Source: Oceanobacillus caeni
Lineage (GTDB): Bacteria > Bacillota > Bacilli > Bacillales > Amphibacillaceae
DNA: 64,000 bases
Assembly: GCF_019037185.1 (NCBI RefSeq)
Contig: NZ_JAHHXM010000003.1
Location: forward strand, 1 to 64,000
Direction of reading: 5' to 3'
The translations under genes and the position numbers were made by a program. A model generated the notes under the pieces. It saw only the letters and a list, made by a program, of their open reading frames with translations. It had not been told where the DNA came from and made no database searches. Shown piece by piece: positions 22,238 through 26,737 of the stretch (positions are counted from its first letter, which is position 1; each line of letters opens with the position of its first letter).

Positions 22238-22302
22238 GTATAAACAGTTCCTTTCTTATCCAACGTACAGAGGAGTTTGATTATATAATCGAATATAACA
22301 AA

Positions 22303-22341
22303 AGTTAGATGAAATAGTCAAACTTAATATAAGTTAGATGA
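22303..22341. repeat. Direct repeats upstream of the satD gene
   Basis: AGTTAGATGA occurs at 22303-22312 and 22332-22341, 29 bp apart (about three helical turns), 65-105 bp upstream of the satD start. Spacing suits a same-face protein binding site. Confidence 0.4.
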
Positions 22342-22396
22342 TTTAGACTAAAACATACTATGGTAAAGTAATTAACTCAAGTTTTGGAGTGAAAAA

Positions 22397-22522
22397 TTGG
22401 TTAAAAGCAGCAACAACACTGCTTATCATATGAATAAGATTAGCATTGTATTAGATGGTGCTGTTCCAAATGAAGAAATCTATCACCACATAGATTTAAG
22501 CTATAATTTAACAAAAATTTAA
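22397..22522 (+). pseudogene. C-terminal remnant of a MmcQ/YjbR family gene
   Basis: A 41-codon frame reads LVKSSNNTAYHMNKISIVLD and ends HHIDLSYNLTKI. The block YHMNK...I.LDG.VP.EEI...ID.SY.LT matches the C-terminal end of MmcQ/YjbR (CyaY-like) proteins, which normally have over 110 residues. The N-terminal two thirds are missing. A GGAGTG precedes a TTG, so a short peptide could be made, but decay is the simpler reading. The rest of 22523-22790 holds only the leader of the next gene, with TTGACA-like and AT-rich promoter elements at 22752-22780. Confidence 0.45.
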
Positions 22523-22796
22523 CAAAGTAATAAAGCTTTTAGAGCAGTTTAGAGGATGCAAAAGATAAAAACTATTCAGAGACTTAATGGTATTTTATGT
22601 AACTTAATTATTCTAAAAAAGTAATAAATGTATATCTTAACCCGTAAAATTTACAGGAGGGGTTTATAGAAGAAAGAAAAATTTTAACGAGGGAAGTTTA
22701 AGCAGAGTTTTATACATCTAGCCAGAAAGTATATGAAAACGCATACAACCCTTGACTTCATTTTGACAAATTTTAATTTTAAGGAGGCGATTGACA

Positions 22797-24857
22797 ATGG
22801 TATTGAATCAACATAATACTAATGTGTTTGATGCTGTGGTAGTTGGAGCGGGTTTTTCTGGATTGTATATGCTTCATCGATTACGGGAGGCAGGTTATTC
22901 GGTTCGCGTTTATGAAGCCGGTGAAGATATTGGGGGAACCTGGTATTGGAACCGCTACCCCGGTGCGCGTTGTGACATCGAGAGTATCTACTATAATTAT
23001 ACTTTTTCAGAAGAGATTTTGAACGAATGGACTTGGTCTTCCAGATATGCTGAGCAACCGGAAATACTAAACTATATAAATTTTGTAGCGGATAAATTGG
23101 ATTTGCGTCGGGACATTCAGTTCAATACACGGATCACAGCTGCCCGCTACAATGAACAAGACCGTAACTGGGAGATTGGAATGGAAGACGGCACGCAAGT
23201 CACTGCTGAGTACTTTATTACGGCATTAGGGTGCCTTTCTGCCTCTAACATACCAAAATTTAAAGGGTTAGACAGCTTCAAAAAAGAGGTATATCACACA
23301 GGAAGATGGCCGCAAGAAAAAGTAGACTTCAGTGGTAAGCAAGTTGGTGTGATTGGAACCGGATCAAGTGGAATTCAAGCAATTCCGGTTATTGCCAAAG
23401 AAGCTGGTCACCTCACCGTGTTTCAGAGGACTCCGCAGTATAGCTGTCCAGCGCAAAATCATCCGTATGATTCCGAAGTAATCAACGAAACAAGGAAAAA
23501 TTACGCAGAAATTAAACAACTTATGCGTTACTCGATGCACGGAGTTCCATCCGCACCTCGGATGAAATCAGCCCTGGAGGATTCCCCAGAAGAAAGAGAG
23601 CGTCTATACGAAAAGGCATGGCAGGAGGGTGGATTATTTACCCTAACCTATAACTATAATGACATTGGAATACTACCTGAAGCAAATGAAACCGCCGCAA
23701 CCTTTATCCGCTCTAAAATTAAGAAAATTGTCCAAGACCCAGAAGTAGCACAAAAACAAATGCCAACCTATTACTACGCTACAAAACGCCCCATTATTGA
23801 CACTAACTATTTTGAAACCTATAACCGAGAAAATGTCTCCCTTATTGATATAAAGGCAGAGCCTATTACGGAAATTACCCCAAATGGGATCAAAACGACA
23901 GATAGGGAATATGAATTAGACGTCCTTGTGTTTGCAACTGGCTTTGACGCTATGACAGGTCCTTTGTTTAAAATTGATATTCGTGGGAAGAATGATGTGT
24001 CGCTTAAGGAGAAATGGAAAGATGGTGCTGATTTAAAGACTTATCTTGGCCTGTCCACTTCCGGTTTCCCGAACATGTTTATGTTGACTGGTCCTCAGAG
24101 TCCATCAGTCCTAAGCAACATGATGGTTTCCATTGAGCAGCACGTAGAATGGGTTGCGGATTGCATTGATTACCTTCGTGAACATCATTTAGAAGCATTT
24201 GAGGCTACAATAGAGGCAGAAGAATTTTGGAGCCAGCAATGTCAGGCAATTGCCGACATGTCTCTGCTAACCAAAACAGATTCATGGTATATGGGAGCCA
24301 ATATCGAAGGAAAACCGCGGAGATTTCTCGCCTTTTCCGGAGGGGTAGGGCTTTATCGTTTAATTTGTGATGATGTAGCAGCTAGGGGCTACGAAGGTTT
24401 TACATCCCTATTATCTTCCAATGGAACTGATGAAAGTTTAGTTAAAGAGGGATTTTTTAAGGCCGATATTGACCCGCAAGCTTGGTTTGTTTTAAAACAA
24501 TTGGAGGCTACAGGAGCACCGCCAATGGAGTCACTTACACCAGATCAAGCGAGAAAGTCCGCTGATTTTCAATTGTTGGCAGGAGCTCCAGAAGAGGTAG
24601 AAACAGTAATAAACAGGACGATTCCACTGGCTGACGGGGAAATTACTGTTCGGATTTACACACCAGCCAGTGAAGGCCCACTGCCAGCATTGGTGTACTA
24701 CCATGGCGGTGGCTGGGTTATCGGAAATTTAGATACCGTTGATGTGCCTTGCCGTATGTTATCAAACAGAGCTCGTTGTGTTGTAGTGTCGGTTGATTAC
24801 CGTTTAGCACCAGAGTACAAATTTCCGACGGCTACTGAAGATGATATGCGGCCGTAA
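22797..24857 (+). CDS. Baeyer-Villiger monooxygenase fused to a truncated HSL-type esterase
   Basis: The open frame encodes about 686 residues. Residues 1-540 are a flavin Baeyer-Villiger monooxygenase: first dinucleotide fold GAGFSG (17-22), the family stretch [15 protein letters not shown] (46-60), the fingerprint [12 protein letters not shown] (161-172, where the usual third Gly is Lys), and the NADP fold GTGSSG (187-192). After a linker, residues 565 onward begin a hormone-sensitive-lipase-type alpha/beta hydrolase with the oxyanion motif HGGGW (636-640) and [12 protein letters not shown]. The frame then shifts and stops early. A BVMO turns a ketone into an ester or lactone and an esterase would open it, so the fusion joins two successive steps. 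AGGAGG precedes ATG 22797. The region looks richer in G+C than its flanks, suggesting transfer. Confidence 0.85.
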
Positions 24858-25312
24858 AGTGGGTGGCAGAAAATGCTGAATCAATCCGGGTAGACCCTGA
24901 CCGTATTGCCGTTGGTGGTGACAGTGCAGGTGGAAATCTCGCGGCAGTGGTAGCCTTGATGGCCCGAGATCGGAAAGGTCCTTCGCTTGTATATCAAATG
25001 CTGATCTATCCGGTAACCAATCATTCCTATGACACGAAGTCTTATAACGAAAATGCGGAAAGGTACTTTTTAACAAAGAATACAATGGTTTGGTTTTGGA
25101 ATCACTACTTACGCGATGAGCAGGACGGAAAAATCCATACGCTTCACCATTATTAGCCGATGACGTAAGAGGACTGCCGCCAGCTCTGGTAATTACGGCA
25201 GGATATGATCCACGGCTTCTTTTGGATGCCAGGAGCAGGAGTGCTTGCCGAGGCACATTACGGGATCAACCAAGCAGCAAATGCTTTAAGCTGCGCTTTT
25301 CATGTGGTGTAA
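24858..25312 (+). pseudogene. Broken C-terminal half of the fused esterase
   Basis: The hydrolase continues after the stop in a second frame ([13 protein letters not shown], then the nucleophile elbow [15 protein letters not shown]). It shifts again at an A5 run near 25131: the expected [15 protein letters not shown] is readable one base later, followed by LVITAGYDP with the catalytic Asp. It then jumps directly to MIHGFFWMPGAGVLAEA, which contains the catalytic His, and ends in a proper stop at 25310-25312. About 25 residues between Asp and His are missing. Nucleophile, acid and base are thus all still recognisable but cannot be made as one protein without two frameshifts. Confidence 0.8.
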
Positions 25313-25356
25313 ATGATCTAGATAAATTCCGATGAATATCTAAATATTAAATACTT

Positions 25357-25390
25357 AGACGTAGGTGTTAGCGGCATCTACGTCTTTGCT
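25357..25390 (+). terminator. Terminator after the BVMO-esterase gene
   Basis: AGACGTAGGTG and CATCTACGTCT form a stem with a short loop, followed by TTGCTTT. The gap 25391-25577 shows no gene. Confidence 0.65.
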
Positions 25391-25523
25391 TTATGTTACC
25401 GATATTGTAGTACAATTATCACGATAATCAAAATAGATCCATATTTGCACCAATAGATTTACGTGTTTCTTGATGTAATATAGCTGACAATTATAAATAT
25501 TAGTTTTTTCAAAAGTATGATAA

Positions 25524-26398
<875 letters not shown>

Positions 26399-26696
26399 TA
26401 GTGGCTAAAAACCACTACTTTTTATACATTTCCTTGTTAACATAATCTTTATTATAGGAAGTCGTGTAAAAAGCCAAAAATCAATCTCAAAAGTAAAGTA
26501 TACTTAAGATAGTGAGATAAAATAAAATTTTTTTATAGAAAATATAATTCTGTTTCTAGAAGAAATTTATTTTACGATTTAAATCAATCCGGACATTTAA
26601 GGAAATTTTTCCTTCTCAATTTACACCAAAGTAAATATATTTTACTATTTTATTCAAATCATAACGTCTTACACAGCTGAATTCCATATTATAAAA

Positions 26697-26730
26697 ATAA
26701 AAAAGCCACATACTTTTTAGTAGTGACTTT
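26697..26730 (-). terminator. Ferredoxin gene terminator
   Basis: On the minus strand AGTCACTAC and GTATGTGGCT pair imperfectly and are followed by TTTTTTATTTT. The intergenic stretch 26399-26696 is AT-rich with nothing else recognisable. Confidence 0.5.
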
Positions 26731-26737
26731 CCTCAGA

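Follow-up and report, generated by a model that had tools for sequence, protein, structure and literature searches.

The window, a stretch of 64,000 nucleotides from Oceanobacillus caeni, very probably carries a laterally acquired copy, now in decay, of a genuine bifunctional gene that was born from an operon of a Baeyer-Villiger monooxygenase (BVMO) gene and an esterase gene. A sequence-only reading had described the block as an in-frame fusion of a BVMO with an esterase of the hormone-sensitive lipase (HSL) type. The identity of both halves and the positions of the BVMO fingerprint and of HGGGW were borne out by homology matches. The proposed end of the fusion fits the end of the esterase, but the joined frame closes at 24857; it starts at the ATG at 22797, with an in-frame TTG upstream (22791), and has 688 codons counted from the TTG. 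The layout of the locus is given in Table 1.

Table 1. Features of the fused gene and its immediate neighbours in the window
Feature	Position	Strand	Remarks
YjbR-family gene remnant (probable)	22397-22522	+	C-terminal end only; Pfam YjbR
Shine-Dalgarno AAGGAGG	22781-22787	+	9 nt 5' of ATG 22797-22799; read from sequence
Fused gene block	22797-25312	+	BVMO and HSL-type (LipP1 family) esterase, damaged copy
BVMO domain	22797-24401	+	Frame intact; terminus ...GYEGF as in relatives' separate BVMO genes
BVMO fingerprint	23277-23312	+	Lys where 143/144 aligned BVMOs have Gly
Linker	24402-24470	+	Presumed derivative of former intergenic spacer
Weakened Shine-Dalgarno	24444-24452	+	Encodes KEGFF in linker
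AAG	24459-24461	+	Occupies former esterase start codon site
Esterase, N-terminal part	24471-24842	+	Joined frame; HGGGW 24702-24716
Esterase, middle part	24845-25132	+	Different frame; GDSAGG 24917-24934 (catalytic Ser by homology)
Esterase piece with LPPALVITAGYDP	25132-25212	+	Third frame; stretch missing at its end
Esterase, C-terminal end (MIHGFFWMP...) and stop	25205-25312	+	Homology to 25309; stop 25310-25312
Split HTH and LAGLIDADG_3 gene	25578-26398	+	HTH 25578-25835, LAGLIDADG_3 25844-26398, in different frames; neighbour only

State of the two halves in the window gene

Type I BVMOs are recognized by the fingerprint FxGxxxHxxxW[P/D], which is flanked by two nucleotide-binding motifs of the GxGxxG type. 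Residues 13-538 of the window ORF match this class, with PAMO (1w4x, 641.6 bits) as the best PDB match, and both nucleotide-binding motifs are present (GAGFSG and GTGSSG). The fingerprint departs from the consensus at a single position, where Lys replaces Gly. Over the 144 rows of the BVMO alignment, Gly is found in 143, Pro in 143, Trp in 142, Phe in 138 and His in 128. Hence the Lys pointed out by the sequence-only reading does exist, but it is a private change of the window copy and not a trait of the family. It is probably a by-product of decay, though the rest of the BVMO half looks constrained. The His of the fingerprint is variable in alignment A3, which has L166 among its rows.

Esterases of the HSL type carry an HGGG motif and a catalytic triad made of Ser, Asp and His. 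A match to Abhydrolase_3 begins at residue 634 of the window ORF, and the presumed catalytic positions are invariant in an alignment of 14 rows, ten intact Bacillota fusions included. When compared with intact relatives, however, the window gene changes frame at about 24.84 kb and again at about 25.13 kb, and a stretch around 25.2 kb is absent from it, whose size of about 25-30 codons is a reading of the pieces against those relatives. The residues that correspond by homology to the catalytic triad are therefore not in one frame. Scanned apart against the LipP1 model NF058653 (cut-off 350), the window pieces score 154.6 and 134.3 bits, below the cut-off, while the intact esterase halves of L016 and L181 reach 462.7 and 467.3 bits. 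Judging from its sequence, the window copy can hardly yield a complete esterase domain, and the earlier proposal that one chain performs two steps is not supported for this copy. A search of its own genome with the window ORF (E ≤ 0.001) returned no match besides itself.

Selection on both halves was estimated as dN/dS of means over the 36 pairs formed by nine fused relatives (L146 included), using the first 122 codons of the esterase. Values of 0.058 for the BVMO and 0.045 for the esterase denote strong purifying selection on the two halves. In the nine pairs that involve the window gene, the values are 0.062 and 0.098, respectively. The difference lies in the esterase, whose mean dN to the relatives is 0.122 in the window against 0.061 among the relatives themselves; for the BVMO half the figures are 0.082 and 0.086. 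Likewise, the ratio of esterase to BVMO dN ranges from 0.63 to 0.84 in the nine relatives and is 1.49 in the window. These observations indicate that both halves are maintained in the relatives, and that the esterase of the window copy decayed first. The linker appears less constrained (dN/dS 0.12-0.23), a noisy estimate from 28 codons in five pairs of intact genes. Counts of codon singletons do not single out the window gene, which has 9 synonymous and 2 non-synonymous; L137 has 9 and 7.

The single frame breaks of the window gene could be sequencing errors instead of decay; the missing stretch, the doubled esterase dN and the private fingerprint change fit poorly with that explanation. It may also be asked whether the gene still yields a working BVMO, whose esterase tail is truncated and non-catalytic. 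An open frame and the unraised BVMO dN speak for such a possibility, which we nevertheless consider rather unlikely: the fingerprint has lost a Gly that every other aligned BVMO retains, the esterase half is fragmented, and a relaxation of constraint may have left no trace yet.

Intact fusions in other genomes and their origin

A contig scan yielded at least 592 candidate loci, and the best 80 were examined. Both domains were found in one open frame in seven of these 80. Three belong to Bacillota: L016, which is Paenibacillus sp. BSR1-1 by title and whose genome (G219) is classed in the Neobacillus citreus family; L017, from N. citreus itself; and L018, from Mesobacillus persicus. Their genes have 869-880 codons and share 87-88% identity with the BVMO half of the window. 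Another three lie outside Bacillota, in Amycolatopsis circi (L055), a Chromatiales MAG (L064) and an Actinomycetota MAG (L084). The seventh, in an Alphaproteobacteria MAG (L051, 7062-9608), is a reversed fusion with the esterase first and the BVMO second.

Additional fused genes were detected in searches by taxon. In the N. citreus family, 72 of 193 genomes have matches at E ≤ 1e-130. Among the best 30 loci, ten are fused (L146, cut by a contig end, is one of them), separate adjacent genes occur in 18, and two (L147 and L150) have neither arrangement. The latter two show an esterase match with no 400-aa BVMO match in one frame, and are possibly more decaying copies. An order-level draw of 397 genomes gave six with a match at E ≤ 1e-250, including one further fusion, L181. 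In the A. circi family, where 88 of 249 genomes match at E ≤ 1e-150, four of the 20 loci fetched are fused (L161, L164, L166 and L160, which is L055 again). No further fused gene was found among 14 other genomes of the family of G861 (E ≤ 1e-230).

Altogether, ten intact fused genes of 867-890 codons are known from Bacillota (L016, L017, L018, L131-L133, L136-L138 and L181); with L146 and the window gene, the set amounts to twelve. The closest relatives, whose fusions are intact, share 86-88% identity with the window ORF along its length. Identity to L016 is 82-88% within the main clade described below and 73% for L138 and L181. A more distant case is WP_283043299.1, a protein of 825 aa from Bradyrhizobium sp. 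CB82 that is annotated as a single CDS for an 'alpha/beta hydrolase fold domain-containing protein'. As in the window family, the BVMO precedes the esterase in one chain; its identity to L016 is 45% over nearly the whole length, and it occupies another place in the tree. Two distant fusions, L015 and L166 (from Bradyrhizobium and an actinobacterium), are grouped together in the tree.

Intact single chains, and not only separate genes, thus exist in relatives. On the strength of these homologues, the BVMO-esterase fusion is natural and genuine, as the sequence-only reading had proposed. The rival idea, in which the in-frame join of the window is a mere by-product of decay in a two-gene operon that lost a stop and a start, finds some backing in moderately close loci with separate genes and short spacers (G056, G127, G093 and Cupriavidus KK10). 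The nearest relatives are, however, intact fusions with an alignable linker, which overturn that idea, and we regard it as highly improbable. G056 had looked like a joined copy when tabulated, and turned out to contain two separate genes.

The origin of the fusion was examined on a BVMO tree of 144 rows (18 fused, 1 reversed, 34 adjacent and 91 without an esterase in the available flank), from which 13 repeat loci and L181 were left out. The label 'fused' requires six changes on this tree, of which at least five are forced by well-supported branches; these changes may be gains or losses. Full support was obtained for a main clade of ten fused genes (L016-L018, L131-L133, L136, L137, L146 and the window). 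In the best trees, L138 and L181 fall outside the main clade, beside lineages with separate genes. The data do not reject a single clade that unites the 12 Bacillota fusions (p-AU 0.164 for the BVMO and 0.226 for the esterase); the linkers of L138 and L181 differ from those of the main clade in length and sequence, which favours separate events. Nature has probably fused the BVMO and the esterase several times.

Because sister lineages have separate adjacent genes, the fusion appears to have arisen from an operon. In three loci with separate genes (L148, L152 and L153), the distance from the esterase start to the DPQA motif equals that of the internal start in the main clade. In most other separate-gene junctions compared, the esterase start is one codon nearer DPQA (5 of 32 loci gave no junction). 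A Bacillota ancestor would have had an operon with the BVMO gene first and the LipP1-type esterase gene second, and loss of the stop codon between them would have turned the spacer and its ribosome-binding site into a linker of about 25-30 residues.

A Shine-Dalgarno sequence and a start codon at the join

The linkers of the ten main-clade genes share the peptide KEGFF. In five of these genes (L017, L018, L131, L132 and L136), AAGGAGG is followed after 8 nt by ATG, or GTG in L017, in the position once occupied by the esterase start codon. The remaining five (L016, L133, L137, L146 and the window) have AGG, AAA or AAG in place of the start, and a weakened motif. The main clade is thus divided into genes that have retained both elements and genes that have lost both. 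Outside this clade, L138 (GGAGG, ATG) and L181 (AGGAGGT, ATG) also retain the two elements, which brings the number to seven of the 12 fused Bacillota genes. On a nucleotide tree of weak support, rooted with L138, the loss of the start falls into about four events.

As a control, the 595 in-frame internal ATG, GTG and TTG codons of the 12 genes (two partial) were surveyed. Six of them, each at the join, have a Shine-Dalgarno match of 7 nt at a distance of 4-11 nt. Matches of 6 nt add two more, in L138 and L146, both off the join; at its join, L138 has only 5 nt. The case for the join is weakened by other signals: a further in-frame ATG in L137 comes with a 5-nt motif, and in several fused genes a motif of 4-5 nt accompanies a downstream ATG.

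Retention of an internal Shine-Dalgarno sequence and a start suggests that some lineages may make a free esterase in addition to the fusion. An alternative is that the strong motif is a relic still awaiting mutation, and that no free esterase is made. Conservation of KEGFF would by itself preserve part of the motif, and predicted RNA folding at the join is alike in genes with and without the start (means of -9.82 and -9.66 kcal/mol). Synonymous choices follow the start codon, however: AAGGAGG is present in 5/5 genes with ATG or GTG and in 0/5 without (Fisher 0.004, uncorrected for kinship), despite a gene-wide use of 36% for GAG and 44% for AAG (11 of the fused genes). Mean dS among these genes, 1.4-1.5, also speaks against a relic. 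We therefore lean somewhat against the relic explanation, while granting it real weight.

If the internal elements are functional, some descendants of the ancestral fusion would translate one mRNA, in a single frame, into the fusion and additional free esterase, and other lineages, having lost the start and the Shine-Dalgarno sequence together, would make the fusion alone. In the window gene, the internal start is lost, the esterase is broken in several places, and only the BVMO half is open and still constrained. Repeated fusion of the same pair in unrelated bacteria, dual products and commitment of some lineages to the fusion alone might be viewed as intermediate stages of gene fusion, an interpretation for and against which we find the arguments evenly balanced.

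Probable acquisition, putative function and known systems

The block is richer in G+C than its flanks, as the sequence-only reading had noticed: it has 44.3%, and three stretches beside it have 32.6%, 28.1% and 30.1%. A similar contrast surrounds the gene in L016-L018 (47-49% against 38-41%). The contrast is therefore a trait of the family, and weaker evidence for recent transfer. The gene remnant and the decayed endonuclease gene reported at its sides were also found. The YjbR assignment of the former is probable, as its match (E 1.7e-5, positions 56-88 of the 88 of the profile) scores 25.9 bits, below the curated Pfam cut-off of 30.1. The LAGLIDADG piece of the latter has one match in the window genome.

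Acquisition of the gene, likewise suggested earlier, gains support from its distribution. At E ≤ 1e-60, searches of the remaining 27 genomes of the genus and the remaining 158 of the family revealed no further fused copy; one genome per species was searched, so that intact copies are possible in other strains of the window's species. In two congeners (G003 and G020, loci L201 and L202), the satD-to-ferredoxin interval, which corresponds to 22238-26737 in the window, is occupied by 5.5 and 8.6 kb of other DNA without BVMO, esterase or LAGLIDADG matches (E ≤ 1e-4). Ten regions were fetched for this comparison, and the other eight had satD and no ferredoxin match. The interval is variable in the genus. 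Altogether, the window gene was probably acquired.

Neighbourhoods were compared in 11 fused and three separate loci (ORFs of at least 90 aa, identity above 35%, coverage of 60%). A long run of common neighbours was found in only two of the 14 loci (N. citreus and G349), and this scarcity fits a movable single-gene cassette. Conserved neighbours were also considered as a clue to the substrate and discarded, as no family besides BVMO and esterase is common to more than two of the 14 loci.

By homology, the intact chain would use FAD, NADPH and O2 to oxidize a ketone to an ester, and would then cleave the ester into an acid and an alcohol. It is plausible that one chain carries out two consecutive steps of ketone breakdown, in which case tethering would limit escape of the ester. 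Aryl or bulky ketones are our guess for the substrate, given the kinship with PAMO and steroid monooxygenase (STMO).

PAMO and steroid monooxygenase (1w4x and 4aos), the type I BVMOs that give the best PDB matches of the BVMO half, are stand-alone enzymes, unlike the fused gene. The same is true of the esterase side: the LipP1 hormone-sensitive lipases of NF058653, the family into which the esterase half of L016 scores, are stand-alone esterases, and so are Est8 (4ypv), the best PDB esterase match among the matches listed, and EST2 (1evq), among the next. Of the 141 PDB matches at E ≤ 1e-20, 60 were listed, and none of these covers both domains. Titles and abstract openings of the literature searched report no natural BVMO-esterase fusion, which does not imply its absence from print.

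The fusions made by nature parallel those made by hand, as BVMOs have been fused by engineering to partner enzymes such as alcohol dehydrogenases (excerpts of PMC9354712). Intact natural fusions are available for testing, with split sister pairs as controls, and the retained internal ribosome-binding site offers a testable picture of how the genes of an operon become one gene. The logic of the ancestral operon has a known counterpart in acmA-acmB of Gordonia sp. TY-5, described in excerpts of PMC6215540 as a bicistronic operon for an acetone monooxygenase and an esterase that turn a ketone into an ester and the ester into an acid and an alcohol. There, as in the proposed ancestor of the fused family, BVMO and esterase genes share one operon, and the two steps are those proposed for the fusion. 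The likeness drawn here is one of operon layout and proposed chemistry, and acmA-acmB encodes two separate proteins where the fused family has one chain.
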